Positions 69 through 14,372 of a stretch of DNA of 64,000 nucleotides are shown here, piece after piece. Every line of letters starts with the position of its first letter. Position 1 is the first letter of the stretch. The stretch comes from Nonomuraea helvata. GTDB taxonomy: Bacteria; Actinomycetota; Actinomycetes; Streptosporangiales; Streptosporangiaceae. The notes beneath the pieces are model-generated. The model was not told the origin of the DNA. It saw only the letters and a program-made list of their open reading frames with translations, and ran no database searches. Made by a program: the position numbers and the translations under genes. Where the stretch lies: NCBI RefSeq assembly GCF_039535785.1, contig NZ_BAAAXV010000009.1:1860001-1924000 (forward strand). Reading direction: 5' to 3'.

Positions 69-157
69 CTGTCGAGTGCGCGCCCGCCCGGTAACCATCG
101 GGAGGGCGCGCACCTCCGCAACTCCAGCGTTTTCGCAGCTCAAACCCCCGAAAACTC

Positions 158-193
158 TGTACGTCATGATCGTAAGAAGTTATGATAATGATA
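158..193 (+). promoter_or_regulatory. AT-rich early promoter/operator, copy 1
   Basis: TATGAT at 181-186 is a good -10 box lying 17 bases after TGTACG (158-163), exactly the arrangement of copy 6 at 14122. TTATGATAATGATA (180-193) is a reverse-orientation half-site differing at two positions from the consensus. An imperfect dyad (ATCGTAA, 4 bases, TTATGAT) overlaps the -10 box, so a bound repressor would occlude RNA polymerase. It lies 40-70 bases before the ParB-like gene. Confidence 0.65.
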
Positions 194-231
194 GTTCAAT
201 CAGTACAAGCCACCCACCCAAGGAGACAGTT

Positions 232-1332
232 GTGAGCACCAGCCCGACCACCGAAGGCCAGGCCACCACCACAGCGCCGGAGGCCACGAAGGACGCCGGA
301 AAGATCGTCGCCAGAACCATCCCCGTCTCCGCGATCCTCCCCGACCCGGACCAGCCGCGCGAGCACTTCGACGAGGAGAAGCTGAACGAACTGGCTGCCT
401 CGATGAAGAAGCTCGGCCAGCTCGAATCGATCGCCGTGCGAGTCGGCCCCAAAGGCACGTACCTCCTCATCGCCGGCGAGCGCCGCTGGCGCGCCGCCCA
501 GATCGCCGGCATCACCAAGCTGCGCGCCAACGTCCACCTCGGCGTCGCCGACGGCGACCCGATGACGCTCGCCAAGCAGGTCGCCGAGAACGTCGCGAGG
601 GCCGACATGACCCCGATGGAGGAGGCCAAGGCGTTCAAGCGCCTGGTCGACGCAGAGTACTCGGTGGAAGAAGTCGCCGAGATGTGCGGTAAGTCGGCGG
701 CTTACGTCGGCTGGCGCATCGACCTGCTCAAGCTCGCCCCCGCCGTCCAGGACGCGGTGGCCAAGGGGCATCTGCCGGTGAACCTCGCCTGGTACGTCGC
801 CCAGCTCGCCCACGACAACCAGGTCCGGTTCCTGTCTCGATGGGTGCGAGGCGACTTCCCGGCCGCACGGGACGCCGAGGCCTTCGCCCAGGCGTGCGCG
901 ACCGAAGAGAAGCGCCAGGCTGAGCAGGGCGCCATGTTCGTCCTCGCCGACGCCGAAGAGGCAGCCCAGGCGCTCGCCGACGACGGCCAGGAGCCACTGT
1001 TCGCCCAGCTGTCGGACGACGAGCAGGAACGCATCACGGTAGAGCGCAAGAAGCTCCTCGGCAAGATCGACCGGATGTCCGAGATTGGGACGGTCCTGTC
1101 CGAGATCGCCACCATGGAGCCCGGCGAGCTGGCCCTGCTCTTGGCGGGAGCCCCCGGCGGGCTCGCCGCTCAGCGCCAGCGCATTACGCACCTGCAGAGC
1201 CTGGCCGTCAAGGCCAACAAGTCCCTGCGCGACGCGCAGATGGCGGCTGCCGTCCGCGCGGGCGGCACGCAGGTCGCGCCTGAGACCTCCACGGAAGACG
1301 CGCAGGACTCCACCGCGATCAACCACGCATAG
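232..1332 (+). CDS. ParB/Spo0J-family DNA-binding protein
   Basis: A 366-residue ParB-family protein. The ParB N-terminal domain spans about residues 25-125 and carries the CTP-binding signature GERRWRA (82-88) and the ENVARADMTPMEEA stretch (120-132) typical of genuine ParB/Noc proteins. A helix-turn-helix (VEEVAEMCGKSAAYV, about 145-160) follows, then an alpha-helical C-terminus. The GTG at 232 is chosen because AAGGAG precedes it; longer in-frame starts would translate the AT-rich promoter. No ParA neighbour is visible, so it may be a plasmid-like partition factor, a regulator, or part of the phage modification set. The real parS-like target is unknown; the repeated AT-rich dyads nearby are candidates. 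Confidence 0.85.
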   Translation: MSTSPTTEGQATTTAPEATKDAGKIVARTIPVSAILPDPDQPREHFDEEKLNELAASMKKLGQLESIAVRVGPKGTYLLIAGERRWRAAQIAGITKLRANVHLGVADGDPMTLAKQVAENVARADMTPMEEAKAFKRLVDAEYSVEEVAEMCGKSAAYVGWRIDLLKLAPAVQDAVAKGHLPVNLAWYVAQLAHDNQVRFLSRWVRGDFPAARDAEAFAQACATEEKRQAEQGAMFVLADAEEAAQALADDGQEPLFAQLSDDEQERITVERKKLLGKIDRMSEIGTVLSEIATMEPGELALLLAGAPGGLAAQRQRITHLQSLAVKANKSLRDAQMAAAVRAGGTQVAPETSTEDAQDSTAINHA

Positions 1333-1337
1333 AAGAG

Positions 1338-1354
1338 TATCAAAATCATAAAAA
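1338..1354 (+). promoter_or_regulatory. AT-rich operator half-site, copy 2
   Basis: TATCAAAATCATAAAAA is identical over 17 bases to copies 3 and 5 but lacks the downstream TATGAT -10 box. It lies 6 bases after the ParB stop codon and about 50 bases before the next gene. It may be a binding site without promoter activity (a stoperator or spreading site). Confidence 0.6.
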
Positions 1355-1406
1355 TCTTCGGGGGTGACATGGTCGCCCCCGAAGGTCCGCCAGGAAGGAG
1401 GAAGCC

Positions 1407-2291
1407 GTGAGGGCCGCCACGCTGACACGCCGGTTCTACCGCTTCTACCGCGTCACATACCTCGACACGACATGGACTCTGTCCGCCGACCCGGTCGGCA
1501 ACGCCCGCGTGGTGAGCCTGCTCCGTGCCGCCCGCGGCTGGTCCCTCCCCATCACCGTCACACCGTTCACTGTCCACCAAGCCGCATTCGCCTGCGCCTG
1601 GTGCCTCGCACGGCCCCGCGCCTTCGTCTGGACCGGAACCGTCCGCCGCGAGAGCCCTTGGTGTGACGCCCCCCAGTGCCAGACCGCACGACTGCGACGC
1701 GCGGCCGGCTCACCGCCCACGCGCGGAAAGGAGATTCCAATGATGACCGTGGAACCCGGCTACACCGTGGCCTACGAACTGGCCCAGGTCATCGCTCTGG
1801 CCGAACTTGCAGTGGCGGCCGAGTCGACCGCCGCCATGGAGATATCACAGGACGGCAGCCGCTTGCGATTCAACGCGGGCCCGCAGACCATCCTCGCCGC
1901 CCTCGGAGACGAAGGCCGCACGATCGGTACGCGGATGACGCTGACCTTCACGCCCAACGATCCCGTAACCAGCGTCGAGAGCAGGAACGACATCAGCGAC
2001 CTGGACTTCATGCGCGGCTGTCTCGCCGAAGGCGGCAAGAGGCTGTACCTGACGAGGAGCCACCGCCAGCGGTCGGGATGGCTGATGACGTGCAACCCAA
2101 CGCTGGACCAGCGGAAGCCGCCGTACGACGTGCCCGAACGATACAAGGTGATGTGCTACACCAGCCCCGGTCCTTGGCACCTGCTCGACCTGGAGACTGG
2201 TCTGGCCTACCGCGCCAAGCCGGGGCAGGCCGCGCTGCAGGGATCGCGCAGCGAGATGGAGACCCTGGCCGGGCGGCTCAACGCGTCGTGA
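1407..2291 (+). CDS. hypothetical protein, possible two-part gene with internal start
   Basis: The frame encodes up to 294 residues with no recognised family. The GTG start at 1407 follows GGAAGGAGG. The first ~110 residues carry two cysteine pairs (CAWC and CDAPQC, about 30 residues apart) suggesting a small zinc ribbon. At 1740 there is an in-frame ATG preceded by GGAAAGGAG, so the remaining 183 residues (MMTVEPGYTVAYELAQV...) may be translated independently. Either one fused protein or two in-frame products are possible. It sits between the ParB-like and GP88-like genes. Confidence 0.6.
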   Translation: MRAATLTRRFYRFYRVTYLDTTWTLSADPVGNARVVSLLRAARGWSLPITVTPFTVHQAAFACAWCLARPRAFVWTGTVRRESPWCDAPQCQTARLRRAAGSPPTRGKEIPMMTVEPGYTVAYELAQVIALAELAVAAESTAAMEISQDGSRLRFNAGPQTILAALGDEGRTIGTRMTLTFTPNDPVTSVESRNDISDLDFMRGCLAEGGKRLYLTRSHRQRSGWLMTCNPTLDQRKPPYDVPERYKVMCYTSPGPWHLLDLETGLAYRAKPGQAALQGSRSEMETLAGRLNAS

Positions 2292-2432
2292 CGCGCCGCC
2301 CTTGACTACGCGGGCGGCTCCTCACAGCCGCCTCCTGCCTCCACTGCCATATCAAAGGCGCCACATCTTGCGATCTCGATACGAACTGCGGCGTCTGCTC
2401 CCCAACCCTCCGGCCCACCGAAAGGCGCCGCA

Positions 2433-2531
2433 ATGCCCGCACACCAGCCCGCGCCCCGGAGCCCTCGGCAGAGCAGCGGTAAGAGGCTCCCGGCTTTCGC
2501 TCCGCACTGCGCACGAGGGGACAGGCCGTGA
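2433..2531 (+). CDS. possible small coupled ORF
   Basis: A 32-residue frame (MPAHQPAPRSPRQ...) follows AAAGG and its TGA overlaps the GTG of the GP88-like gene (GTGA, 2528-2531), the coupling seen repeatedly in this genome. It is arginine/proline rich with no known family, so it may be a chance ORF. The rest of 2292-2432 shows nothing recognisable. Confidence 0.3.
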   Translation: MPAHQPAPRSPRQSSGKRLPAFAPHCARGDRP

Positions 2532-3331
2532 GTGGGCAGGTGAACCGCGTTCAAGGCGCGCTGTTCGAACTCCCACCGGCCCGACCGGCGCCCGAGCGCC
2601 CGAGCAGGCTGCTCATGCGCAATTCGCGGCTGAGACGCGACCCTGAACGCATCTGGAACTGGACGCTACCCGCCTTGGCCGCCGAACTGCCGTCCGGGCG
2701 GAAGATCGTGACGTGCCCGTCCGCAGGCACCTGCGCCGACATCTGCTACGCCCTCTTCGGGACGTACCGCTTCCGCAATGTGCTCGAGCGGCACGTGGCC
2801 AACCTCCGCTTCGTCGTGGAGGACCTTGAAGGGTGGGAGCGCGTGATGCGAGCGGAACTCGGCGCGCGGCGCTTCCGCGGCGCGGCGGTCCGCATCCACG
2901 ACGCCGGCGATTTCTTCAGCGACGCCTACCTTGCGGCCTGGCTGCGCATCATCGACGCCCGACGCGAGGTGTTCTTCTACGCCTATACGAAGGAAGTGAG
3001 GAGATTCAAGCGAATGGTGGAGCCGCAGCCCCCGCCCAACCTGGCCTGGGTCTACTCCCTGGGCGGAAAGCACGACGCCATGCTGGACCTCGCCACCGAC
3101 CGGGTCGCCGACGTGTTCCCCACCGAAGCGGCGATCACCGAGGCCGGCTGGCATTCGCAGGCGCCGTCCGACCTCCTGGCGGTGCGGGGCCCCAGCCCAG
3201 TCGGGATGTCCGTCAATCGAATCCCGACGGCGGTGCGCCTCCTGGGCAACCGCACGCTCGGCCAGATGCAACAGGAGAGCGACCGCCGCAAGCGCGCACT
3301 CAGGGCTTCACGGAGAGGAAAACCGCTATGA
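2528..3331 (+). CDS. GP88-like phage protein
   Basis: The 267-residue product resembles the actinophage Gene-product-88 family, whose biochemical function is unknown. Supporting features are a WNWTLPAL motif, a cysteine cluster (TCPSAGTCADICYA, about residues 58-71), the stretch VRIHDAGDFFSDAYL (about 121-135) and FFYAYTK (about 150-156). The cysteine cluster and the HxxGDF motif suggest a metal site. Its GTG overlaps the preceding small ORF and its stop overlaps the next gene by ATGA, so the run is translationally coupled. Confidence 0.65.
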   Translation: MSGQVNRVQGALFELPPARPAPERPSRLLMRNSRLRRDPERIWNWTLPALAAELPSGRKIVTCPSAGTCADICYALFGTYRFRNVLERHVANLRFVVEDLEGWERVMRAELGARRFRGAAVRIHDAGDFFSDAYLAAWLRIIDARREVFFYAYTKEVRRFKRMVEPQPPPNLAWVYSLGGKHDAMLDLATDRVADVFPTEAAITEAGWHSQAPSDLLAVRGPSPVGMSVNRIPTAVRLLGNRTLGQMQQESDRRKRALRASRRGKPL

Positions 3332-3864
3332 CCCAGCCCGCCCCTGATCACGAGCAGCACATCCGCATCGCCATCACCCACCCCGACCCGCCCGAGGGCG
3401 GGGACTGCCGCGTCACCGTCCGGAACATCACCACCCGAGCCCAGCGCGGCAATGCCGAAGGCCGGCTGCCCACGACGGACACCGACGATGGGCCAAGGCA
3501 CGGGCCACGGTACAGGTCGTACTGCGGCGGGTGCGGTGAGGAGGGCCCGCTTCGGGAGGACGAGAGCCTCGCGGTGGAGGACGGCTGCGATCACGCCTAT
3601 CCCGGGTGGCGCTCTATGCCGGTCGTAGTGCACCGGCCCTACACCGACAAGCCGCAGCCGCTCGCCCGCTGGAAGGAGCAGGTGCGCGCGGTGTACCCAG
3701 CCGGGTGGCTGGATCGGCAGGGGCCGGTACGCGAACTGCGTCACGGCCTGGGGAGCCGGCATGTGCCCGGCCTCGCACCAGGCGGCGGCTACCTGATGGC
3801 GGTAATGCGGCCGGACCCCAAGAAGTCGAGGAGCCTGCCCGCGATCCAGACGTCGCTGTTCTAG
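3328..3864 (+). CDS. hypothetical zinc-ribbon protein
   Basis: 178 residues starting at the ATG of an ATGA overlap with the GP88-like gene, preceded by GGAGAGG. A probable zinc ribbon (YCGGCGEEGPL, then DGCDH about 20 residues later) lies in the middle. The acidic N-terminus and proline-rich C-terminus ending SLPAIQTSLF are unremarkable. No family is recognised. The following gap (3865-4007) holds promoter copy 3. Confidence 0.65.
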   Translation: MTQPAPDHEQHIRIAITHPDPPEGGDCRVTVRNITTRAQRGNAEGRLPTTDTDDGPRHGPRYRSYCGGCGEEGPLREDESLAVEDGCDHAYPGWRSMPVVVHRPYTDKPQPLARWKEQVRAVYPAGWLDRQGPVRELRHGLGSRHVPGLAPGGGYLMAVMRPDPKKSRSLPAIQTSLF

Positions 3865-3934
3865 CGCCCCGACAGGCGAAGGCTCTTCACCTGCTCTGAC
3901 CTGCAAAAACAGCCGTTTCTCAGGCCTATTTACA

Positions 3935-3966
3935 TTGCTATCAAAATCATAAAAAGTTATGATGAT
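3935..3966 (+). promoter_or_regulatory. AT-rich early promoter/operator, copy 3
   Basis: TTGCTA (3935-3940) and TATGAT (3958-3963) are separated by exactly 17 bases. Inside, ATCATAA and TTATGAT form a perfect 7-bp inverted repeat with a 4-base spacer, so the -10 box is half of an operator dyad. The half-site TATCAAAATCATAA is at 3939-3952. Copy 5 matches this one at all but one of 31 positions. It drives the operon beginning at 4008. Confidence 0.8.
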
Positions 3967-4007
3967 CACTATAACCAATAAGCCCCACAAACCCCGAAGG
4001 AGCCCGA

Positions 4008-4565
4008 ATGTCCGCCAGCGCGACCGCCCTCCGCGACCAGGCCAACCGCGACGACCAGGCCGCCTACGACTCCTTCGAGCGCTGCGACACCGACGGCGCT
4101 CTCAGCCAGTGGGCCCACAGCCTGAACGCCCAAGAGGCCCGCCTGCAGGCCGACATCACCGAGGCCGGCGGCGTCGCCCTGTTCCCCGCCCTGTTCGACC
4201 TGAACGGCAACCTGGTGCGCGCCAAGCTGATGCACGGCCAGTGGGGCGCCTACTTCGCGCTCCTCGACGAGCGCGGCCGGATCACCGGCCAGTGGTTCAC
4301 CCCCTCCAAGGCGAGCGACGCCCGCCGCGCCCGCGCCGCCGACGCCGCGCGCACCGTCGGCGACCTCAAGGGCGGCTACATCGGCTACGTGATGGCTCCC
4401 GCCAAGGCCGAGCTCCGCGGCGGCAACGTCGCCACCGTCACCGCAGTCGCCGTCCGCACCGACAGCGGCTACTCCCCGGACGTCGAGATCGTCGACAACG
4501 GCCAGCACAACGAGTACGGCGAGACGTTCGGCCGCTGGTACGCCATCCGCGGCGGCCTCATCTGA
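4008..4565 (+). CDS. hypothetical accessory protein
   Basis: 185 residues with an ATG at 4008 after AAGGAG. The N-terminus is alpha-helical and alanine-rich. The second half contains a beta-rich stretch (GGYIGYVMAPAKAELRGGN) and ends in EYGETFGRWYAIRGGLI. No catalytic motif or membrane segment is visible and no family is recognised. It is the first gene behind promoter copy 3 and probably heads a transcript reaching the methyltransferases. Confidence 0.7.
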   Translation: MSASATALRDQANRDDQAAYDSFERCDTDGALSQWAHSLNAQEARLQADITEAGGVALFPALFDLNGNLVRAKLMHGQWGAYFALLDERGRITGQWFTPSKASDARRARAADAARTVGDLKGGYIGYVMAPAKAELRGGNVATVTAVAVRTDSGYSPDVEIVDNGQHNEYGETFGRWYAIRGGLI

Positions 4566-4633
4566 CCTTCCTTCCTCCGGCCCCGGGGCACCCGCCCCGG
4601 GGCTCCCACCCATGCCTCAAGGAGGCCCCGCCC

Positions 4634-5452
4634 ATGACCGCCGCGAACCACGCCCAGATCACCGCCACCGTGGACGCCGCAACGCGAGCCGCGACCACCA
4701 ACATCGACGCCTTCGTCAAGGAGGGCCTGCGCCTGCTTGACACCTTCCACGCTGGCGAACTGGCCAAGCCGTACGAGCTGCCCCTCGTTCTGGCCCTCCA
4801 CATCGACCGGATCCGCGACATGGCTCTGCAGGCCATCAATCCCGCCAACGCGGCGAACCGATCGAACGCGTGGACCAACCTGGCCATGCGCACCGAGCCG
4901 GTGTTCGTCGCACCCGTCGCCACCCTGGCCGCCTGCGCTGCGTTCGTCGCCGGCGACAGCAGGCAGGGAGCCGAAGCCCTGGAGACGGCGCTCATCTGCG
5001 ACCCCGGCTACCGGGTCGCCCACCTGCTGCAGGGGATGCTGCGGGTCCGCACCGTTCACGCCGACTTCGACGTGTCCAACATCCCGTTACCGGACGTCCA
5101 ACCGCGCCACATCTGGGCAATCCCGCTGCTCCGCCGTGTCCGCCTGTACCACGCGCTGACCGAGAGGGGCCCTGCCGCGAACACCGGACACGACCCGTTC
5201 ACCGCCCGGACTGCCGTCGCCCAAGCCGCACACGACAGCGGCCTCGCCGTCAGCTTCACCACCACCGACTCCGCCCACTACGAGCGAGGCGGGAAGGCGC
5301 TGACCATCACCTACGACAGCGACGGCGGCCTCGTCCACGCGTTCTACATCCACGCCAGATCCCAGCCTGGACGGCGGCTCGACTCGCTGGCCGACGTCCT
5401 GGCCGCCCTCGACGCGATGACCTCCAGCCCGGCCGACATCCCGCCCGCCTGA
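4634..5452 (+). CDS. DUF4192-like protein
   Basis: 272 residues; the ATG at 4634 follows AAGGAGG. The central segment (TLAACAAFVAGDSRQG, then ALETALICDPGYRVAHLL, about residues 100-140) matches the pattern of the actinobacterial DUF4192 family, whose function is unknown. The C-terminal ~60 residues (beta strands such as KALTITYDSDGG) are outside that similarity. The long frame open upstream to 3959 is out-of-frame with the real gene at 4008 and is not coding. Confidence 0.6.
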   Translation: MTAANHAQITATVDAATRAATTNIDAFVKEGLRLLDTFHAGELAKPYELPLVLALHIDRIRDMALQAINPANAANRSNAWTNLAMRTEPVFVAPVATLAACAAFVAGDSRQGAEALETALICDPGYRVAHLLQGMLRVRTVHADFDVSNIPLPDVQPRHIWAIPLLRRVRLYHALTERGPAANTGHDPFTARTAVAQAAHDSGLAVSFTTTDSAHYERGGKALTITYDSDGGLVHAFYIHARSQPGRRLDSLADVLAALDAMTSSPADIPPA

Positions 5453-5515
5453 CCGCCCGCCCTCCGGGGCGGGTGAACCCGCCCCGAGGCACACCACCCA
5501 CATGGAAGGACCAAC

Positions 5516-5932
5516 ATGCTCAAGTTCGTCTTCGACGTGCCCGCCACCGCGACCATCAAGCTCTCGGCCGACGGAGAGCAAGCCGCCGAAAGGATCAACG
5601 ACGACGACAAGGAGGCGCGTTTCGAGACCCGCGCCATCGACGGCGAAAGCGGGGACTACTGGCAGATCGAGCTGGTCGTCCTGAGCTCGCGAGGACGCGC
5701 CACCCTGGCCGAAGTCTGGGACGACGGCACGCTCACCGCGGGGAGCCACGTCCAGCCGAGTCCCGTGCGGGAAGCCGTCCTGCCGGACGCCACCCGTGCC
5801 GAACCCGAGGATCGCCTGACCGCCTGGGAACACGCCGCCGACAGCGCGTGCGGCGACGAGCACGCCGCCGCAGCCGATCTGGCCGACGTCGTTCGCGCCC
5901 TCCTCCAGCGGGTGGAAGGCGGCAAGAGGTGA
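5516..5932 (+). CDS. hypothetical acidic protein
   Basis: 138 residues with an ATG at 5516 after GGAAGGA. The first ~60 residues are predicted beta (MLKFVFDVPATATIKLSAD...) and the C-terminal half is helical and rich in Ala/Asp/Glu. No family is recognised. Its TGA overlaps the GTG of the following methyltransferase, so the two are coupled. Confidence 0.65.
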   Translation: MLKFVFDVPATATIKLSADGEQAAERINDDDKEARFETRAIDGESGDYWQIELVVLSSRGRATLAEVWDDGTLTAGSHVQPSPVREAVLPDATRAEPEDRLTAWEHAADSACGDEHAAAADLADVVRALLQRVEGGKR

Positions 5933-6771
5933 AGATCCCCGACGACGTGCTCGCCGTGCTGGCCGACCCGCGCGTGATCATCGCTGGCGACCGCGTGCGG
6001 ATTCCATTCGAGCTGGACAGGCCACTGTACGAACGTGTCGACCACATCCTTCGGATGGCGGGCGGCAGGTGGGACCGCCGCAAGAGGGTCCGCGCTCATG
6101 TGTTCGGCCACCAGGTCGAGGAGTTCATGCGGCAGGCGATCGCGTCGGCTGAGTTCCCGTCCCGGTACGAGCAGGGCTGGTACCCGAGCCCGCCGCCTGT
6201 GGTCGAGAAGCTCCTGGAGCACGCCGGCATCAGCGACCAACGCCCGGGACTGACCGTGCTGGAGCCGTCCGCCGGGACCGGCTGCATCGCCGGACCAGCC
6301 GCCGCCCGCGGCGCCGTGGTCGATGTCGTCGAAATCGACGCCCGCCGTGTCGAAGTACTGCACCGACAGGGCTTCGCCCGCCGTGTCGTCCACGGCGACT
6401 TCCTGACCGATGTGCACCCGCTCGACTACCCGGAGGGGTTCAGCCGTGTGGTCATGAACCCGCCGTTCAACGACGCGGTCGCCCATGTCGAGCACGCGCT
6501 GGGGTTCCTCGGCGACGACGCAGTTCTGGTGTCGGTCATGCCGGAATACGTGCTCTGGCGCAGCGACCTTACGACCAAGAAGTTCCGGTGGCACGTGGAA
6601 GGCAACGAAGGCGAGTTCGTGCCGCTGCCCCGGGACGCGTTCACACCGTCCGGTGTCACCGTCCACGCCGTTCTCGCGATCGTGCCGACCGGCCACGAAG
6701 GGTGCACCGTCCGCAACCACAGCTGGCATCGCAGGTACCCCAAGCAGCAATACGAGCTGTTCGCCCTCTGA
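5929..6771 (+). CDS. class I SAM-dependent DNA methyltransferase (NPPF type)
   Basis: 280 residues. The SAM-binding motif I is EPSAGTG (112-118), the acidic motif II is VVEIDARR (133-140) and the catalytic motif IV is NPPF (177-180), as expected for N6-adenine or N4-cytosine DNA methyltransferases. No target-recognition domain is evident beyond a ~80-residue N-terminus. The GTG at 5929 lies in a GTGA overlap. No cognate nuclease is adjacent, so it is probably an orphan phage methylase that protects virion DNA. Confidence 0.75.
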   Translation: MKIPDDVLAVLADPRVIIAGDRVRIPFELDRPLYERVDHILRMAGGRWDRRKRVRAHVFGHQVEEFMRQAIASAEFPSRYEQGWYPSPPPVVEKLLEHAGISDQRPGLTVLEPSAGTGCIAGPAAARGAVVDVVEIDARRVEVLHRQGFARRVVHGDFLTDVHPLDYPEGFSRVVMNPPFNDAVAHVEHALGFLGDDAVLVSVMPEYVLWRSDLTTKKFRWHVEGNEGEFVPLPRDAFTPSGVTVHAVLAIVPTGHEGCTVRNHSWHRRYPKQQYELFAL

Positions 6772-6789
6772 CCGGAAGGAACCTGATCT

Positions 6790-6834
6790 GTGACTCACAT
6801 CGTGCACGACCACGCGGAAGGCAGGACGAAGTGA
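6790..6834 (+). CDS. possible leader peptide
   Basis: A 14-residue frame starts with GTG eight bases after GGAAGGA and stops with TGA overlapping the ATG of the next gene (TGATG). The next gene lacks a strong ribosome-binding site of its own, so translating this short frame could deliver ribosomes to it. The peptide sequence (VTHIVHDHAEGRTK) is histidine-rich. This is inference from spacing only. Confidence 0.35.
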   Translation: MTHIVHDHAEGRTK

Positions 6835-8009
6835 TGGCCCGGCGCCGCCGCCAGGCCGGCCCCGATGCGCGCCAGTTCGACCTGTTCACGATGGCGCCGC
6901 AGTCGACGGCCCCTCTACTGTCCACGCCCACGCCGGCTACAACCACGCAACTACCCACACCTTCCCCAACCCCGCAGCCCGCGCTCACCACCGCGGCGGC
7001 CAGGCAGGCCCCGCCCGACGCCCACCTGGTCGACGGCGACCGCAGGTACAGGCTCTCCCGCCGATCAGCTGCCGACCTCGCCGAGCGTGCCGCCGAGGCA
7101 TGGCATCAACGGCGCGCTGGCAGCGATATCGCGATCCCGATGGGGATCGTCGCCGGCCTGACCCTGCTGCGGAAGACCGGAACAGACGGCACCGACACGG
7201 CCCGCTTCGTCCTCGGCCTCGACAAACGAGCCCTGCTGAAGTTCCACCAACGGATCTGGGGCTACGTGTGGATCCGGCACCCGTACCTGGTGGAGATCGC
7301 CAGACCGATCCACGAGTGGCTCAGCGTGGAGGAGGACCCGCCCGCGAAAGCGATCGATGCCGTTCACGCTCTCACCCACACCATGATTCGCAACGGGCTC
7401 CTCGACATCACCGGAGACCCCGACCCGATGATGCGCTGCGAAGCCGATCTGTTGGGGATGGTGCTCACCCAGATGCGGTCGGAGAGAGCGCGCCTCGCGC
7501 TCGCTGAGGTTCACACCCCGCCCGACATGGCCGATCTGATCGTCCGCGTGCTGTTCGACCGCGGCGGCAACTTGAAGCCAGGTCAGTGGATCGACGAGCC
7601 GACCGCCGGCACCGGCGGCCTGCTGCGCTCGACCGCGCTGCTCATGCGCATGCAGGGCATGAACCCTCACGAGTTCGGATGGTCGCTGGGGGAGATCGAT
7701 CCGATCGCGGCCGCGTGCGCAGCCGTCAACGCGGTCGTGTGGGACCTCGGTGGCAATGTCCTCATCCACGTCGGTGACACCCTGGCCACCGGCAACGGAC
7801 CGTCGCGGGCCTACGAGCACCGCAAGGCGGTAGAAGCCCACTACGAGAAGGTGATGGACAGCGCCACCACGGCAGCGCGATTCATCGCCGCCCTCCGCAA
7901 GGCCAAGACGCTCATGGGCACGGTGGAGAAGTCGCGTCAACACCCTCACCGGACAGGCCCTGAAGGTCATCTTGGAGCGGCCGTGCAGGCGCGCATCGTC
8001 CGGCCCTGA
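6834..8009 (+). CDS. N6-DNA-methylase-like protein lacking motif IV
   Basis: 391 residues. A proline/threonine-rich N-terminus (residues 20-60) precedes a helical domain and then an HsdM-like SAM site, DEPTAGTGG (254-262), with GEIDPIAAACAAVNAVVWD (287-305) as motif II and following helix. After GDTLA, where type I methylases have NPPY/F, the sequence goes straight into a basic helical tail and no NPP[YFW] occurs. It may be catalytically dead, a SAM-binding regulator, or a partner of the upstream methyltransferase. The last ~60 residues look unlike the family and may have been replaced. Confidence 0.7.
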   Translation: MARRRRQAGPDARQFDLFTMAPQSTAPLLSTPTPATTTQLPTPSPTPQPALTTAAARQAPPDAHLVDGDRRYRLSRRSAADLAERAAEAWHQRRAGSDIAIPMGIVAGLTLLRKTGTDGTDTARFVLGLDKRALLKFHQRIWGYVWIRHPYLVEIARPIHEWLSVEEDPPAKAIDAVHALTHTMIRNGLLDITGDPDPMMRCEADLLGMVLTQMRSERARLALAEVHTPPDMADLIVRVLFDRGGNLKPGQWIDEPTAGTGGLLRSTALLMRMQGMNPHEFGWSLGEIDPIAAACAAVNAVVWDLGGNVLIHVGDTLATGNGPSRAYEHRKAVEAHYEKVMDSATTAARFIAALRKAKTLMGTVEKSRQHPHRTGPEGHLGAAVQARIVRP

Positions 8010-8060
8010 GCAGAAGGACGGACCCACCTTGAAGGTTTGACGTGCCCAACCCGTCACACA

Positions 8061-8089
8061 TTGTTATCAAACAAGTAGAAGAATATGAT
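8061..8089 (+). promoter_or_regulatory. AT-rich early promoter, copy 4
   Basis: TTGTTA (8061-8066), 17 bases, TATGAT (8084-8089). The operator half-site is degenerate here (TATCAAACAAGTAG), so the promoter geometry is kept while the dyad is weakened. The start codon at 8096 lies only 7 bases after the -10 box, implying a leaderless or nearly leaderless mRNA unless a later ATG (8144) is used. Confidence 0.65.
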
Positions 8090-8095
8090 CACGAT

Positions 8096-8506
8096 ATGAA
8101 ACACGCGCTCGCAACCTGCACCTATCAGGAGTTCACTCCCACCATGGGCTACGCCGTCCGTACCACCGTCGGCGCCCCGCGGGGGCCCCTGCCCTACGAC
8201 CTGGCCGGCCACGCCACCCTCCTCACCCCCAGACGGGAGATGCTCGGCCTGTCCTACGAGGCCTACAAGCCGCGCTACCTCCAGCTGTTGGGCAGCGCCG
8301 GCTTCGACGCCATCGCCGCCGAACTCGACGAGATCGGCAACGGCCTCTCCAGCGGACGACCGCTGGTGCTGCTGTGCTTCGACCGGCTCAACAAGCCCGG
8401 CGCATGGTGCCACCGGACGATGGCCGCCGCCTGGTTGCGAGAGCACGCTGGCATCGAGGTGCCGGAGCTCGGCGCCCAGTTGCCACCCAGCCTGTTCGAC
8501 CTGTGA
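8096..8506 (+). CDS. DUF488-like small protein
   Basis: 136 residues from ATG 8096. The segment RPLVLLCFDRL...WCHRTMAAAWL (about residues 84-108) matches the conserved LLCxE...CHR core of DUF488 proteins, whose role is unsettled. The N-terminal third (GYAVRTTVGAPRGPLPYDL) is consistent with the same fold. A shorter start at 8144 (MGYAVR...) is equally possible because the first start sits almost on the -10 box. Confidence 0.6.
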   Translation: MKHALATCTYQEFTPTMGYAVRTTVGAPRGPLPYDLAGHATLLTPRREMLGLSYEAYKPRYLQLLGSAGFDAIAAELDEIGNGLSSGRPLVLLCFDRLNKPGAWCHRTMAAAWLREHAGIEVPELGAQLPPSLFDL

Positions 8507-8519
8507 TCAAGAACCTGCC

Positions 8520-8678
8520 ATCACGGGGCGGCACACCCGGCGCCGCCCCGCTCATATCCAGCTCGGGCTCGACGAGTGGACGGCCCCGCACGGCATCCCA
8601 GAGTCGGACGGCAGGGACGTCCCCTCCTTCATCGCCGAGGACCAATCGGCCGTCTCAGGCCATCTCAGCCTTACCTGA
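8520..8678 (+). pseudogene. possible gene fragment
   Basis: Between 8507 and 8837 no intact gene is convincing. One frame (8520-8678) reads HIQLGLDEWTAPHGIPESD and then DVPSFIAEDQSAVSGHLSLT before TGA, with G/C-rich third positions like real genes here, but it has no start codon. It may be a decayed 3' end. The remainder of the gap holds promoter copy 5. Confidence 0.25.
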
Positions 8679-8767
8679 GGTGGACCACCAGGCCGACACT
8701 CACCTGGCCAGCCAAGTGTTCAGATAGCAGCAGGTGGGCGGTCCCACATCGGGCCTACCCGCCTCGC

Positions 8768-8796
8768 ATTGCTATCAAAATCATAAAAAGATATGA
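8768..8796 (+). promoter_or_regulatory. AT-rich early promoter/operator, copy 5
   Basis: TTGCTA (8768-8773), 17 bases, TATGAT (8791-8796). The half-site TATCAAAATCATAA is at 8772-8785, and ATCATA/TATGAT form the dyad. Only one base differs from copy 3 over 31 positions. It drives the AAA+/VWA operon. Confidence 0.8.
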
Positions 8797-8837
8797 TAGA
8801 GATATAACAACAGTCTGTGACCAATAAGGAGAAGTGC

Positions 8838-10067
8838 GTGACCACCACGACCCCTCACCCGACAGCGGTTCAGCCGCTCAGCGACCCGGCAGCCCTCCTC
8901 ACCTCCACCCGGCTCCGGGCCATCGTCGACGAACTCGGCGACCGCTACCTGGAGCGCAGCAGCGTCATTAAGGCTCTCGTCGCCTGCATGCTGGCCGGCG
9001 AACACTCCCTGCTGCTCGGCCCGCCCGGTACTGCCAAGAGCGAGCTGGCCCGAGACCTGACCGGCCGGATCCAGGACGCCCGCCTGTGGGAGGTGCAGAT
9101 GACGAAGCACACCGACCCGAAGCAGTTGTTCGGCCCGATCGACGTGGCCGCGCTCATGCAGGGCCGCTACGAGCAGGTGTGGGACGGGCGCGCCACCACG
9201 GCAAACATCGCGTTCATCGACGAGATCGGCAAGTGCGGCCCTGCCGCCCTCAACGGGATGCTGACCTACCTCAACGAGCGTTTGTACCACCCGGAGGCGG
9301 GCGGCTCGCCCATCCGCTGCGCGCTGCTGTCTGCGATCTGCGCCAGCAACGAGGTGCTCGAAGGCCAGGAATCTGCCGCGATCTATGATCGGCTGCTGGT
9401 CCGTCTCGAAGTCGGCTACCTCGCCGACGTGAGCAACTTCGCCACGCTGATCCGCTCAGCGACCGCCCCGGCCGTACCGCCGGCAGCGCCGACCACGGTG
9501 TTACTGGCCGATGTGGAGAACGCCGTGCGCGTCCACGTGCCCCGCATCGAGGTGCCCGACCCGCTGATCGACGCCGTGTGCACGCTGCGGACGGCGCTGC
9601 ACCACGAAGGGCTGATCGCCTCAGACCGGCGCTGGAAGAAGTCCATCCGGCTGCTGCAAGCCGCCGCCTTCCTGGACGGCCGCCGCGCGGTCACCTCGAA
9701 CGACATGGCGCTCCTGACACACGTCCTGTGGGACAGCCCCGCCGAGAAGACCACCGTCGAAGAGCAGGTCCTCCAGCTGGTCAATCCGGACGCCAAGGAG
9801 GCCCTGGACATGCTCAACATGCTCGACGCGATCGAAGCCGAGCTCAACAAGCTGGCCGGGCAGTCCCGCGAAAAGCTGTCCGAATGGGGGATCAGGGAGG
9901 CCAACCCCAAGCTCGCCAGGTCCGCCAGGAAGCTGAAGGAACTGCTCGAGCAGTCGACCGCGGCCGGCCGGTCGACCGACACGCTGAACGAGGTCATCGC
10001 CCGCCACCGCGCCGTGAACAGTCGCGTGATGACCGAAGCGCTCAACATGCAGCCCACCGGCATCTGA
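8838..10067 (+). CDS. MoxR/RavA-like AAA+ ATPase
   Basis: 409 residues. Walker A is GPPGTAKS (61-68) and Walker B is IAFIDEIGK (124-132). An arginine-rich sensor region and the spacing to a helical lid are typical of the MoxR branch of AAA+ ATPases; RavA is the best-known relative. The C-terminal ~100 residues are helical (AIEAELNKLAGQSREKL...) and could be a partner-binding extension. The GTG follows AAGGAG and an operon with the VWA gene begins 10 bases after its stop. MoxR-VWA pairs act as chaperone-like remodelling machines; the substrate here is unknown. Confidence 0.85.
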   Translation: MTTTTPHPTAVQPLSDPAALLTSTRLRAIVDELGDRYLERSSVIKALVACMLAGEHSLLLGPPGTAKSELARDLTGRIQDARLWEVQMTKHTDPKQLFGPIDVAALMQGRYEQVWDGRATTANIAFIDEIGKCGPAALNGMLTYLNERLYHPEAGGSPIRCALLSAICASNEVLEGQESAAIYDRLLVRLEVGYLADVSNFATLIRSATAPAVPPAAPTTVLLADVENAVRVHVPRIEVPDPLIDAVCTLRTALHHEGLIASDRRWKKSIRLLQAAAFLDGRRAVTSNDMALLTHVLWDSPAEKTTVEEQVLQLVNPDAKEALDMLNMLDAIEAELNKLAGQSREKLSEWGIREANPKLARSARKLKELLEQSTAAGRSTDTLNEVIARHRAVNSRVMTEALNMQPTGI

Positions 10068-10077
10068 GGAGCCCGAC

Positions 10078-11739
10078 GTGGCCGCGGAGAACGCGAAGAA
10101 CACGAAGAAGGCGAAGAAGCCGCTGGCGGCACTGAAGGACCTCGCGGCCAGAGCCGGGCGCTGGCTCGGCCTGGCCGCGACTCCCGCACCCGCCAAGCAC
10201 ACCAAGGTCGTCGACTCCGACCGGTGGGACGAGAGGACCTGGACCGACATCTACAACCAGGCTCGCGCCCTCCGCGACATGGCCGACGACCTGGCCGACC
10301 GGCACGACTACACGACTGACCTGCTCCGCGACGTGTGGACCGGCGCCTACAAGGCGGTGCCGCAGCTGCACGAGCTTGCCGACATGGACCCGTCCCGGGC
10401 GGTGAACCACCAGGTTGTGTCCTCGCTGGTGGAATCGCCCGGGTTCCGCGAGCTGCGCCGCGACACCGTCGGCGACCCCTACGCCGCAGCGATGGCGGTG
10501 CTGGCGCAGGGCAGCGCACTGCGCAGCATGCTCGAAGAGACCCGCGAGGCGCAGCAGGCAGCGAAGGCAGCGCAGGAGGCGCAGGAGCAGGCCGCGCAGG
10601 CGGCACAGCAGGTGCAGGCGGCGATGGAAGCGGCAGCAGCCGCAGCCGACCCGGATGGCAGCGTCCCGGGCGCCGCCGAAGCCCAGGTAGCGGAAGCCGT
10701 CGCAGCGGCTGAAGCCGCCGACCAGGCCGCAGCCCAGGCCGACGCAGCCGCCCAGCTGGCGCTCGCCCAGGCCGGGCCGGCCATCCGCACGGCCGCCCGG
10801 GCCGCCGCCGAGGAGGCGGCCGGGAAGGTGCGCGAGGAAGCCGAGCTGATGGCCGCGTGGGGTGTCGAACCCGAGCGGCTCCAGCGGATGAGCTTCGCCG
10901 CACGCGCCGACCTGGCCCGCCGCCTCACCGGGAACCGGCTGGCCGCGTACGCGCAGCTGATCGGCCGGTTCCGGGCGATGGCCGGCGGAGAACGAGCCCG
11001 CCGCGTCGAGCACACCACCGGCGAACTCGTCGGCGTCACGGTCGGCGACGACCTGTCGCGGCTCGTGCCGTCCGAGCTGGCCGCGCTCGCTGTGCCCACG
11101 CTGCGCGCAGACTTCGCCGTACGCCTCGCCGAAGGCAGGCTGATGGTGTACGAGTCGCGCGACGAAGAGGAGACCGGGCAGGGCGCCATCATCGCCCTGG
11201 TCGACTGCTCCGGCTCCATGAGCCGCAGAATCGACGGCTCCAGACCTCTCGAACCCAGCGAGGTAACCCGAGAGGCGTGGGCGAAAGCTCTGTCGCTCGC
11301 CCTGCTGGACCAGGCCCGCGCCTCCGGCCGTGACTTCGTCGGCATCCTGTTCTCCAGCGAGGACCAGCAGCAGGCGTTCCACTTCCCGAAGGGCCGCGCC
11401 GACTTGGTCGACGTGCTGGAGTTCGCCGAGCACTTCTTCGCCGGCTGGACCGACTTCCAGGTGCCACTCGGCCAGGCGGCCGACGTCCTGTCCGACCAGT
11501 ACAACGCCGACGGCAGCCGCCGCGGCGACATCGTCCTCGTAACCGACGGCGACGCCCGTGTGACCGACGAGTGGCTGGAGCAGTGGCGGCAGCGCAAGCA
11601 CCTGCTCGGTTTCAGGGTGTTCGGCGTGTCCATCGCCCAGCGCCCCACCAAGGTCCTGGAGGAGCTGTGCGACAACCTGCGCGAGATCAGCGACCTGCTC
11701 GACCTCGACGCCACCCGCGACATGTTCCGCGTCATCTAG
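10078..11739 (+). CDS. VWA-domain partner protein (ViaA/CoxE-like)
   Basis: 553 residues. The first ~150 residues are polar and helical, then an Ala/Gln-rich coiled-coil stretch (about 165-260) precedes the C-terminal von Willebrand A domain. Its MIDAS motif DCSGSMS begins near residue 376, with VTDGDARVTDEW near 483. This layout, with the AAA+ gene directly upstream, matches ViaA-type partners of RavA. CobT-like chelatase subunits have a similar layout, but no CobN-type subunit is present. Confidence 0.8.
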   Translation: MAAENAKNTKKAKKPLAALKDLAARAGRWLGLAATPAPAKHTKVVDSDRWDERTWTDIYNQARALRDMADDLADRHDYTTDLLRDVWTGAYKAVPQLHELADMDPSRAVNHQVVSSLVESPGFRELRRDTVGDPYAAAMAVLAQGSALRSMLEETREAQQAAKAAQEAQEQAAQAAQQVQAAMEAAAAAADPDGSVPGAAEAQVAEAVAAAEAADQAAAQADAAAQLALAQAGPAIRTAARAAAEEAAGKVREEAELMAAWGVEPERLQRMSFAARADLARRLTGNRLAAYAQLIGRFRAMAGGERARRVEHTTGELVGVTVGDDLSRLVPSELAALAVPTLRADFAVRLAEGRLMVYESRDEEETGQGAIIALVDCSGSMSRRIDGSRPLEPSEVTREAWAKALSLALLDQARASGRDFVGILFSSEDQQQAFHFPKGRADLVDVLEFAEHFFAGWTDFQVPLGQAADVLSDQYNADGSRRGDIVLVTDGDARVTDEWLEQWRQRKHLLGFRVFGVSIAQRPTKVLEELCDNLREISDLLDLDATRDMFRVI

Positions 11740-11767
11740 CCCCCCGACGAGCAGGAAGAGACCCGTC

Positions 11768-12241
11768 ATGATCCGCTTCGACTCTGTCACCCTCACCTAT
11801 GTGGGACTGGTCCTGGCCGCCAGAGACCTGTACCCGCTGAAACAGTGGCTCACCGCCAGGTGCCCCGAGTGCCACCAAGAGCCGCCCGTCGACGACCCCG
11901 GTCACGTCATGCTGCGCGGCTACGTCGCCGTGAGCTGCGCAGGTGGGCTCCTGGTCAACCCCAACATGCTGGGCATGCGCGTGCCGGACTGGCCCGACTG
12001 GAGGAGAGTCCGCCCGGACGTGACCATCGGCCGCTGGCAGCCCGCGGGAGAGCCGGACAGCCCCGCTGTGCGCGCGAAGGCCGTCATCACCGTGGAGCTA
12101 CTCGCCCAGGCCGGGCAGCCCTTCGGCGCTGTCGGGCCGGACCTGGTGCGGCTCCTGCATGGCCAGGAATTCGAGGTGCAATCCGACCCGACCGACGACC
12201 CCAACGGCTACCAGACGATCACGATCACCGCGCTGCGGTGA
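11768..12241 (+). CDS. hypothetical protein with one Cys pair
   Basis: 157 residues, ATG 11768 after GGAAGAG. CPECH (about residues 32-36) suggests part of a zinc site. The rest is predicted beta-rich and ends in a strand-like NGYQTITITALR. No family is recognised. It lies 28 bases after the VWA gene and probably shares its mRNA. The following 92 bases contain a GC-rich hairpin (GGCGGCG ... CGCCGCC). Confidence 0.6.
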   Translation: MIRFDSVTLTYVGLVLAARDLYPLKQWLTARCPECHQEPPVDDPGHVMLRGYVAVSCAGGLLVNPNMLGMRVPDWPDWRRVRPDVTIGRWQPAGEPDSPAVRAKAVITVELLAQAGQPFGAVGPDLVRLLHGQEFEVQSDPTDDPNGYQTITITALR

Positions 12242-12333
12242 GCGGGCGGCGGCGCCGGTCATCCCGACGCCGCCGCGCCAGCCCCACCACACCGACAAAA
12301 ACGCCCGTTTGAAAAGACAGGAGGGAAGCTCCC

Positions 12334-13422
12334 ATGACCAGCCAGGACCCCACCCCCACTCCTGCGACCCCCGCGCACCCCGTCGGACATGGCGGCACAA
12401 TGGAAGCCCTCGCCGGATACGCAGCCGCCATGGAACAGGGCGAAACGCCGATCATCGGCTACCTGGTCCTGTACTCGGTCTTTGAGTCGGAGGTTACCCG
12501 CGACGACCTCCACCGATGGTTCTTAGCGCTCGGGTTGGATGACACGTTCCTACCGCCCCCGATCCGCGAGCATGACGCGTTCGAGCGGGTCACCGGCCAG
12601 GCCGGCGTGCGGGCCTCCTACCGGCTCGACAAGGACGCGGCCCGGCACCGCGTGCCCGGGCAGAAGGCGCCGGATCAGAAGGTCACCGAGGCCACGCTGA
12701 TGATCCGCCACGTGTCCCGCGACAACCTGAAGGTCGTGCGGCACATGGTCCGAGAGGTCCGCGATGAGAGCCGGACGCGCCTGGAGTACGCCCCCCGGAT
12801 GGCGGAGCTCACATTCTGGCGTGACCCACTGGGAAGTGGCCAGCCGGGCCGAGGCGTCCTGCAGGTGACCCCAGACGAGGCCGAGATCGCCAAGCTGTCG
12901 TCCGACGAGCAGGAGCGGGTGCGGGAGACCTTGGGAAAGGTGGAGAAGACCTATCAGCGATACTGCCGCTACTACAGCAGCGATCGGCTGCGCACGCTCG
13001 TCCGCACCTACGTTGAAGCGCTGAACGCCGTCATGGTCCGCAGCGGCGGGGGCGTGTATTTCGTGCACAGCACGTACGCCGACCGGCTGGTGGCGCTGCG
13101 CGGCCTGGTGAAGCACTTCGGCGAGGGCAGCCAGCTGGCGCGCGTCCCGCTCCCCGACCAGGAGGAGATGCGCGAGATGGTGGTCGCCGCGCTCACCACG
13201 GAGGCGCGCGAGGACCTGGAGAAGCTCGCGCTCGACATCAGCAAGGCCCGAGCCGACGGCGTGTCCGATGCGCAGGTGCAGACCCTGTACAAGCGGTTCC
13301 GCGCCCTGCAGGACTCCGCAGCCGAGCACGCCAAACTGCTGTCCACCAGCCTGGACGACACACAGGCCGCCCTGCAGCTCGTCCACGCGCAGGTCGCCAG
13401 CCTGCTCGCCAACGCCGGGTGA
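12334..13422 (+). CDS. DUF6744-like protein
   Basis: 362 residues; ATG 12334 follows AGGAGGG. The protein is mostly helical, with an aromatic-rich patch (KTYQRYCRYYSSDRLRTLV, about 208-226) followed by a beta hairpin (GGGVYFVHSTYADRL). It resembles actinobacterial DUF6744 proteins, function unknown, though I am not certain of the family. The C-terminal 90 residues are heptad-like and could be a coiled coil. A 19-bp tandem duplication spans its stop codon. Confidence 0.6.
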   Translation: MTSQDPTPTPATPAHPVGHGGTMEALAGYAAAMEQGETPIIGYLVLYSVFESEVTRDDLHRWFLALGLDDTFLPPPIREHDAFERVTGQAGVRASYRLDKDAARHRVPGQKAPDQKVTEATLMIRHVSRDNLKVVRHMVREVRDESRTRLEYAPRMAELTFWRDPLGSGQPGRGVLQVTPDEAEIAKLSSDEQERVRETLGKVEKTYQRYCRYYSSDRLRTLVRTYVEALNAVMVRSGGGVYFVHSTYADRLVALRGLVKHFGEGSQLARVPLPDQEEMREMVVAALTTEAREDLEKLALDISKARADGVSDAQVQTLYKRFRALQDSAAEHAKLLSTSLDDTQAALQLVHAQVASLLANAG

Positions 13423-13442
13423 CCTCGCCAACGTCGGGTGAC
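13405..13442 (+). repeat. 19-bp tandem duplication across a stop codon
   Basis: CTCGCCAACGCCGGGTGAC (13405-13423) is followed immediately by CTCGCCAACGTCGGGTGAC (13424-13442), one mismatch. The first unit contains the stop codon of the DUF6744-like gene. The second provides the left arm of the terminator that follows, so the duplication may have created or extended the hairpin. Confidence 0.85.
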
Positions 13443-13465
13443 AGGGCGCCGCCCTGTCACCCGAC
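13433..13465 (+). terminator. perfect 14-bp stem hairpin
   Basis: GTCGGGTGACAGGG (13433-13446) and CCCTGTCACCCGAC (13452-13465) pair perfectly around a 5-base loop. There is no U-run, as is common in high-GC actinobacteria. It lies between the DUF6744-like gene and the next ORF. Confidence 0.7.
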
Positions 13466-13531
13466 ACGAACGGCCCCGACCAAACGACAAGTCCGTGCCC
13501 GTAACCGTGACCGACGCAGAGGGAGCACACC

Positions 13532-13948
13532 ATGACACCCGAACCGACCGCTGCGGCCTCCACCGCCGACCTCGGCATCGCCCCCGCGCGGCTTGTCGCG
13601 GAACTGCTCAACTGGCTGGCCGCCAACCTGGCCGTGCGCACCGCACGGGAGACGTATGTGGAGGCGACCGCCATGATCCGGCTGTGCCGTGTGCTCGGCG
13701 TACCCGCCCCTGAGGGCTTACCCGAGACCGCCCACGAGGCTTTGATCCTCCTGGCCATGAAGACCGAGACCCCTGAGCTGCAGCTCAGGGAACGGCTGCA
13801 CCACCAGGCGACCGGCCGATACCGTCAGCTCCGCCAGGAGTTCCTGGCCAACGCTGATGCGATGACGTTGGAAGCCGTGATCGAGCGCGTGCAGAACTCA
13901 CAGCGCCTCTGGGCCGCCAACCAGAGCAACCTGCCGGCCGGCCGCTGA
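13532..13948 (+). CDS. hypothetical helical protein
   Basis: 138 residues, ATG 13532 after GAGGGAG. It is entirely helical and Ala/Arg/Glu-rich with no cysteines in a metal pattern and no clear membrane segment. No family is recognised. It is the last gene before a good terminator at 13963-13990. Confidence 0.6.
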   Translation: MTPEPTAAASTADLGIAPARLVAELLNWLAANLAVRTARETYVEATAMIRLCRVLGVPAPEGLPETAHEALILLAMKTETPELQLRERLHHQATGRYRQLRQEFLANADAMTLEAVIERVQNSQRLWAANQSNLPAGR

Positions 13949-13962
13949 CGGACGCGATCACT

Positions 13963-13990
13963 GAACCCCACACCGTCCGGTGCGGGGTTC
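13963..13990 (+). terminator. factor-independent-like terminator
   Basis: GAACCCC-A-CACC pairs with GGTG-C-GGGGTTC around a 4-base loop, leaving one internal mismatch. It closes the transcript of the AAA+/VWA operon before promoter copy 6. Confidence 0.65.
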
Positions 13991-14121
13991 TCGCACGCTG
14001 CGGCCATTGCGCTGCCGTCCAGCGGCTCTACCTCGCTTGCCATGCGGAGCCGAACCGCTCCCTGCGCCGATCCGAGCCCCTCCAATCTGGCGACATTTCT
14101 GCAGCTCACAGACCCAAACCA

Positions 14122-14157
14122 TGTACGGCAAGATCATTAAATATTATGATTTTGATA
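14122..14157 (+). promoter_or_regulatory. AT-rich early promoter/operator, copy 6
   Basis: TGTACG (14122-14127), 17 bases, TATGAT (14145-14150). The exact half-site is present in reverse orientation (TTATGATTTTGATA, 14144-14157). The stretch before it shares GCAGCTCA and CCC-AAA blocks with the upstream region of copy 1, so copies 1 and 6 form a subclass. It precedes the 58-residue gene at 14196. Confidence 0.65.
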
Positions 14158-14195
14158 TAGAAATTTGCGATTCACCACAGACCCTGGAGGCGAAG

Positions 14196-14372
14196 ATGAC
14201 AGACCAGGCCGCGAAAGAGCAGCTGATCGAGAATCTGTACAACGAGCGTACAGAACTGGCTGGCGCGTACACCGAGGCGGTCCAGAGCGGACGGATCGAG
14301 GATGCGGACGACGCGCAGGCCGAGATCGACAGGCTGGGGGCGAAGCTGCGAGAGCTAGGCGAGGATCTCTAA
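14196..14372 (+). CDS. small coiled-coil-like protein
   Basis: 58 residues (MTDQAAKEQLIENLYNERT...), ATG preceded by CTGGAGG. Charged heptads suggest a helical hairpin or coiled coil. It is the only gene on a short unit between promoter copy 6 and the terminator at 14401. Small acidic helical phage proteins are often host-takeover factors, but nothing here shows a target. Confidence 0.6.
   Translation: MTDQAAKEQLIENLYNERTELAGAYTEAVQSGRIEDADDAQAEIDRLGAKLRELGEDL

Follow-up and report, generated by a model that had tools for sequence, protein, structure and literature searches.

Why does a prophage in DNA of 61-75% GC (2-kb bins) carry the same AT-rich sequence at one early operon after another? 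The question is posed by a 64,000-nucleotide stretch of the Nonomuraea helvata genome (C9:1860001-1924000 of an 11.26-Mb genome in 12 contigs, here G000), which we call the window; coordinates below zero denote bases to the left of its first base. Its prophage context is given by terminase, portal, ClpP-type protease and amidase genes at 30-52 kb of the window. The early region begins well to the left, where it includes genes for a YqaJ-type exonuclease, RecT, a DNA polymerase III sliding clamp and a Cro/C1-type helix-turn-helix (HTH) protein. A first-pass annotation of the window had proposed a dispersed promoter/operator controlling the early operons, read as a phage immunity or early-gene regulon with one repressor or activator, or as a set of ParB sites. 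We find nine copies in the prophage and, on balance, favor the view that each is a promoter for a host sigma factor carrying a dyad operator, by which nine or more prophage operons would be switched together by a phage-encoded dimer, most likely a small HTH repressor.

Distribution of the element

The 14-mer half-site TATCAAAATCATAA has five matches in the window at up to three mismatches, against 0.09 expected, and none of 100 shuffled sequences reached five. Exact copies lie at 1338(+), 3939(+), 8773(+) and 14144(-), and a copy with two mismatches at 180(-); a sixth, at 8065, differs at five positions and so falls outside the three-mismatch list. The six AT-rich copies of the first-pass annotation are therefore real, with the half-site exact in four and degenerate in two, and five of their positions stand, the remaining one being 8773 instead of 8772. 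The copies at 180 and 14144 had been placed on the minus strand, but they are the right arms of predicted plus-strand promoters at 158-197 and 14122-14161.

Genome-wide, at up to two mismatches, the 14-mer occurs nine times: eight matches cluster within 19 kb of the prophage (C9:1855231-1874157), as a phage regulon would require, and one is distant. Many copies across the early region and few elsewhere in the host are the pattern of a dispersed phage repressor-operator regulon. A position weight matrix (PWM) for the whole element, or cassette, found nine copies in 124 kb of G000, at -10993, -4773, -4173, -2258, 158, 3935, 8061, 8769 and 14122, the first four up to 11 kb left of the window and all nine in promoter orientation. 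It found ten more, again all in promoter orientation, in 88 kb of G161:C2, a phage-like contig of 90 kb that belongs to a different genus of the family and was itself found by the motif. The 19 copies score 21.7-64.6 bits against maxima of 2.7 and -0.7 in Markov sequences (ten each), 17 of them (eight from G000, nine from G161) having been used to build the matrix and thus matching partly by construction; those outside the matrix set are -4773 in G000 and 10888 in G161. Five further cassettes, with the same geometry and different inner sequence, lie in a phage represented by two metagenome records (L269 and L270, 99.98% identical over 13,089 bases), which was found via the protein encoded at 8096 of the window and not via the motif.

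With one mismatch, the 14-mer occurs in 12 of 297 family genomes, more than once only in G000 (six) and G161 (four), and a scan of 297 family genomes with the promoter pattern matched 16, with multiple matches only in G000, G161 and G250. Across the class, 393 genomes scanned with the pattern at up to three mismatches gave 33 matches in 24 genomes, with no cluster seen outside G000. The matches listed from an exact-pattern scan of genome contigs include many unrelated bacteria, as judged by record title. Three single exact matches in viral contigs, all in loci of 31-35% GC, were taken as chance, as was one 42-bit match in G246, which has no relative of the phage proteins within 40 kb. A blastn search of phage records with the copy at 8769 returned weak partial matches, the best of those listed at E 0.3.

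A predicted promoter overlain by a dyad

All copies fit a common 40-nt frame with a -35-like hexamer at positions 0-5, a -10 hexamer at 23-28 and GATA at 32-35. TTGNTA is kept in 5 of 9 G000, 8 of 10 G161 and 3 of 5 L269 copies, TATGAT in 7, 10 and 2, and GATA in 6, 10 and 3, respectively. The spacing claimed in the first-pass annotation, TATGAT exactly 17 bp after TTGCTA, TTGTTA or TGTACG, holds in five of the six window sites. A generic sigma-70-like scan of 18 kb returned four sites against 1.0 expected, three of them the elements at 3935, 8061 and 8769. TGTACG replaces TTGNTA at -35 in three copies from two phages (158 and 14122 of the window, and G288:C105:19195) and is perhaps the site of a second factor.

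Placement relative to genes is consistent with promoter function. Twenty-three of the 24 cassettes (nine in G000, ten in G161, five in L269) are intergenic, the exception being L269 7918, which overlaps a gene end. Random scatter inside genes, which would have spoken against a regulon, was not seen: all nine G000 cassettes are intergenic, in an early region only 15% intergenic (9% in G161). In eight of the 24 cassettes an ATG lies exactly at position 35, the presumed +1, 7 nt after the -10 hexamer. Seven of these ATGs open reading frames of 97, 108, 114, 121, 136, 138 and 153 codons; the eighth (-2258) opens three codons only, with the gene start 28 nt further on. In the other 16 cassettes the distance to the downstream start codon is 33-91 nt, and in 13 of these it is 33-43 nt. 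Genes were called with a simple purpose-made caller, which had put the leaderless starts at -4738 and 8096 further downstream; we accept 8096 because homologue alignments begin there. Starts 6-9 bases after TATGAT had been foreseen, and the predicted leaderless ATGs fall within that range. By geometry and start-codon distances, putative operators overlap predicted early promoters in all 24 cassettes, and the intergenic placement and start spacing together support a dispersed promoter/operator serving the early operons as one regulon.

The first-pass annotation had recognized an ATCATAA/TTATGAT dyad over the -10 hexamer. That dyad is present, but the actual symmetry is wider, TATC-N3-ATCATA-N6-TATGAT-N3-GATA. 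A model of it finds six sites at 15-20 of 20 positions on the plus strand of the window, with the next best at 13 and maxima of 12-14 in 20 Markov sequences, scores that are only descriptive because the model was read off the best copy. Over the 19 G000 and G161 copies, the left arm mirrors the right beyond base composition (z 13.2 versus within-copy shuffles), as does the inner arm within the 17-bp spacer alone, which is not fixed by the hexamers (z 8.4); a dyad of this kind is what a phage repressor-operator regulon would have. Taken singly, 12 of the 19 copies pass the inner-arm test at p<0.05 (8 of 9 in G000, 4 of 10 in G161). The exact half-site is the left arm at 3935 and the right arm at 14122, as would be expected if the bound protein has two-fold symmetry. 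With its center near -15.5, between the hexamers, the dyad overlies the promoter, which makes a dimeric repressor the best reading.

The number, positions, orientation and symmetry of the copies are read directly from the DNA, and from them we propose the following mechanism. The element would be a promoter for a host sigma factor, with -35 TTGNTA in the best copies, a 17-bp spacer, -10 TATGAT and transcription beginning at the final A of GATA. Bound to the dyad from about -31 to +1, a dimeric DNA-binding protein of the phage would exclude RNA polymerase, more plausibly repressing than activating, and copies heading at least nine operons from -11 to +14 kb would be switched together. Such a switch might serve lysogeny or the shut-off of early lytic transcription. 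The same arrangement before many groups of early genes, in a layout shared with two related phages, points to one phage protein controlling them all.

A candidate regulator

The likeliest binder appears to be a small HTH protein of 153 aa encoded at -4738 to -4277 (L012:15262-15723), whose own gene begins on element -4773 and would thus be autoregulated. The coupling is plain in the sequence: G000, G161 and L269 all have the ATG of the HTH gene precisely at position 35 of an element. In G161 and L269 it is transcribed divergently from the early genes, and the elements form pairs separated by 100 and 104 bp. The G000 and G161 proteins are 32% identical and seem to contain two HTH-like stretches. 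Pfam matches are mostly sub-threshold and of HTH type, with one above cut-off (Myb-like, E 2e-5, in G161), and among solved structures a chain called RelI matches (1.4e-4). The L269 relative (profile E 9.8e-9) is the sole tblastn match at E<=0.05 among 125 loci. The G000 protein has no tblastn match in 50,697 phage records at E<=1e-3 and none in plasmids, and the G161 protein likewise has none in phage records.

We then compared the occurrence of element and protein in 19 whole records of related phages, which represent 7 of 19 ParB loci and 12 of 15 loci found via the 8096 protein (the other three share those records), the remaining 12 ParB loci and a further set of 80 loci being left out. 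The dyad pattern occurs in two records, L269 and L270, which are one phage, and the HTH profile matches one of the two, the other ending inside the gene. The profile also matches G711 weakly, over 27 residues. Counted as phages, three have both element and HTH protein and 17 lack the element, 16 of which have no HTH match at all; with G711 set aside, the chance of this co-occurrence is 1 in 1140.

Several observations weigh against this interpretation. L269 is the only independent case in the co-occurrence count, since G000 was the starting point and the motif had led to G161, and the L269 protein aligns over one HTH only. In G000 and L269 the -10 hexamer of the element preceding the HTH gene is poor (GACGCT and GACCAT, respectively). 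Similar HTHs are common, a two-row profile matching 75 of 260 family genomes at E<=1e-3, so that a similar HTH alone means little and the case for the candidate is made chiefly by position and autoregulation, less by rarity. Six of the ten G161 copies fail the inner-arm test at p<0.05, and part of the conservation may therefore serve the promoter itself. Finally, the matrix scan found no element among the early genes at about -19.5 to -13.8 kb, beside the Cro/C1-type gene. As neither that gene nor the adjoining early genes carry the element, the regulon may be a second tier of control rather than the immunity switch.

Alternative explanations

The element could instead be a phage-specific class of early or middle promoter requiring a phage activator or sigma-like factor, with TATGATNNNGATATAA as its recognition sequence and no operator. 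The right half, from -10 to +4, is indeed the most conserved part of the element; the inner left arm is missing in several G161 copies, and contig G288 keeps only the right half, in diverged cousins such as TAGGATTTAGATGTAAG. We nevertheless consider this rather unlikely, as most copies have a left arm that matches the right by symmetry, inside a spacer not fixed by the hexamers, and as the dyad is preserved in L269 and G250 despite different letters. Three window copies also pass a sigma-70 consensus scan, and the -10 hexamer varies among the L269 copies.

A second alternative keeps the promoter and its dimeric operator and assigns binding to another phage protein, either the ParB-like protein, acting in the manner of KorB, or the C1/Cro-type HTH protein near -19.5 kb. 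An element heads the ParB gene in G000, and in G161 the gene is the second after one; its product is well conserved (43-44% identity, with invariant motifs), and a palindrome scan found no other repeated site for ParB, a result of little weight given that the scan also missed the known element. Five loci of 13-17 kb encoding close ParB relatives (L239-L243, 49-56% identity), however, lack the element, and none of the whole records of L239-L245 contains the dyad pattern. Sites therefore do not accompany the ParB gene as they would in a ParB/parS or KorB/operator set, and the ParB-site reading of the first-pass annotation is unlikely, although a relative could use other sites. No element adjoins the C1/Cro-type gene of G000, which is separate from the candidate regulator gene and lies some 19.5 kb to the left of the window. 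We regard either protein as quite an unlikely binder.

It is very improbable that the copies simply arose by duplication of a single AT-rich promoter and have been retained for strength, or because a host AT-binding silencer of the Lsr2 type targets them, with no phage regulator involved: the elements at 3935 and 8769 do share 24 consecutive identical bases, and the 19 G000 and G161 elements have 53-82% A+T in DNA of 66-71% GC (window 1-18000), but the cassette is common to two genera whose shared proteins are 34-63% identical (leaving out a 15-residue match at 73%), which argues against recent copying, and L269 keeps the geometry at just 42-62% A+T.

Related phages

The preferred reading, a promoter with an operator for a small HTH repressor, can be extended to relatives in which the dyad letters differ. 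In L269 they are approximately GATAGCATGCTAT, in place of the ATCATAA-N4-TTATGAT of G000 and part of G161. The phage-like region G250:C28 has at least five copies of TTGYTATGTCCCTNAANTTGGCCTATAATAGAGACATAA (50986, 73476, 73981, 75163 and 82321, all in promoter orientation), with a dyad TATGTC-N22-GACATA centered one base over, and may be a sibling regulon. G250 and G161 share a large protein, perhaps a terminase, that is 51% identical; a blastp search of this 40-kb part of G250 returned no relative of the HTH protein. The 26-kb contig G288 has one half-conserved copy (23.7 bits) and a diverged promoter family without the left arm, with right halves like TAKGATTNAGATGTAAG at approximately 7840, 13940, 14814, 19195 and 20896 of G288:C105.

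Tentatively, these phages could form a group with a common chassis (TTGNTAT, a 17-bp spacer, the -10 hexamer, 3 nt, GAYATA, and a dyad from about -31 to +1) in which the dyad letters change by lineage. The G000, G161 and L269 sets would be controlled by an uncharacterized small HTH repressor whose leaderless, autoregulated mRNA would start inside its own operator, and lineage-specific immunity would evolve by re-lettering. This broader proposal is possible, though doubtful at present.

No element was found in 32 of 34 loci scanned at 15 bits (L239-L268, L271-L272), in 40 kb of G339, which shares genes, or in the gene-sharing phages Soos (50 of 57.5 kb scanned), Satis (46.7 of 186.7 kb) and Tonitrus (50 of 58 kb). 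G269, which by eye looks like a broken remnant of the HTH gene, and G011 also gave none. Among 80 relatives of the protein encoded at 4008, two single matches of at least 25 bits, both in loci of 40-49% GC, were set aside.

Two further observations concern other genomes. G161:C2:88243-89940 (L165:6243-7940) encodes a 565-aa phage integrase with a LacI-type HTH match (1.6e-15) at residues 328-369, an odd fusion. In five genomes (G194, G168, G138, G061 and G096; L207-L211), a conserved sequence like TGTATATCAGAAYRCGTTCTGACTATGATTGAGATATGA has TATGAT with a dyad directly before it and an ATG placed as in the elements.

Comparison with known systems

Dispersed phage operators are a known kind of control, and the locus appears to be an early regulon of this kind, built of promoter-operator cassettes, in an actinobacterial prophage. 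It would be distinct from the best parallels in its fusion to promoters, its leaderless starts and its candidate regulator. In the Streptomyces phage phiC31, conserved inverted repeats (CIRs), dispersed dyad operators at early promoters, are bound by one repressor. The G000 elements are similar in being dyads dispersed at many early promoters of an actinophage, with one candidate phage repressor, and differ in that regulator, here a small HTH protein; the comparison is one of layout and regulator. Plasmid RK2 has a ParB-family regulator, KorB, with dispersed operators at promoters. A ParB-family gene and dispersed promoter operators are found here as well, but relatives of this ParB lack the element.

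Mycobacteriophage L5 and other cluster A phages have 20-plus stoperators, dispersed sites in promoters and short intergenic spaces with fixed orientation and one repressor, which, in the available text of the reports, binds a 13-bp asymmetric site as a monomer and also stops elongation (PMC9283540, PMC6550527). Similar to stoperators, the G000 sites are dispersed, intergenic and fixed in orientation to transcription; unlike them, they are dyads, not asymmetric sites, and are fused to the promoter. Cluster O mycobacteriophages have 17-bp dyads, TGTTCGGNNNCCGAACA, which the available text places mostly away from predicted promoters, with 11 of 34 inside genes in Corndog (PMC4351075). Both sets comprise many short dyads in an actinophage genome that also has a ParB-like gene, whereas 23 of our 24 cassettes are intergenic and have a built-in promoter.

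A search of titles and abstract openings, with subscription journals mostly outside its coverage, found no description of the element. The analysis predicts promoters, start points, operator and regulator for a phage group on which we found no experimental work, and, since +1 is set by the leaderless ATGs, it does so at single-base precision. Should the regulator be correctly identified, the known phage switches would gain a small HTH protein that has no match in the phage records searched. The G161, L269 and G250 sets would then allow co-change of operator letters and protein to be tested across a whole dispersed regulon.

Elements and genes of the early region

Within the window, element 1 (158-197, +; TGTACG, 17 bp, TATGAT, then AATGATA; PWM 39.4) heads the gene for the ParB-like protein (232-1332, +; ParB_N and HTH_ParB), whose GTG start at 232 lies 39 nt after the presumed +1 at 193. 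Element 3 (3935-3974, +; TTGCTA, 17 bp, TATGAT), with an exact left and a degenerate right arm, heads an operon whose first gene (4008-4565, +) encodes a phrog_5855 protein; its G161 orthologue is the third gene after the element at 55704. Element 4 (8061-8100, +; TTGTTA, 17 bp, TATGAT, CACGATATG) contains the start codon of a predicted leaderless gene for a 136-aa protein (8096-8506, +). The best copy, element 5 (8769-8808, +; TTGCTA, 17 bp, TATGAT, AGAGATATAA; dyad 20/20), heads an operon of a MoxR-type AAA ATPase (8838-10067, +) and a VWA-domain protein (10078-11739, +). Element 6 (14122-14161, +; TGTACG, 17 bp, TATGAT, TTTGATATA) precedes a 58-aa open reading frame (14196-14372, +) and, further downstream, a gene for a phage DAM-like and GNAT-like protein (14655-16001, +).

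The half-site at 1338-1354 (+), an exact 14-mer plus AAA between the ParB stop codon and the next gene, has no -10 hexamer and was not recovered by the promoter PWM; it alone is stoperator-like in position. Directly 3' of it lies a hairpin with a 15-bp stem (1354-1386, +), and the region 1330-1400 has a folding energy of -28.8 kcal/mol (z -4.45). The hairpin is a possible terminator of the ParB operon and is absent from our terminator scan, which requires a T run.

No integrase was noticed among the called prophage genes, no dedicated integrase search having been made. The prophage-encoded DNA polymerase III beta clamp (-1755 to 68, 607 aa) has, by eye, a long acidic N-terminal extension. A transposase gene with Mu/rve domains and an ATPase-like gene, IS21-like by eye (-13375 to -11202, L012:6625-8798), lie directly upstream of element -10993, which now heads the exonuclease-RecT operon. 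Genes for a luciferase-like monooxygenase and a multicopper oxidase (-7644 to -5163, L012:12356-14837) lie inside the early region, adjoining the candidate regulator gene, and look like cargo.

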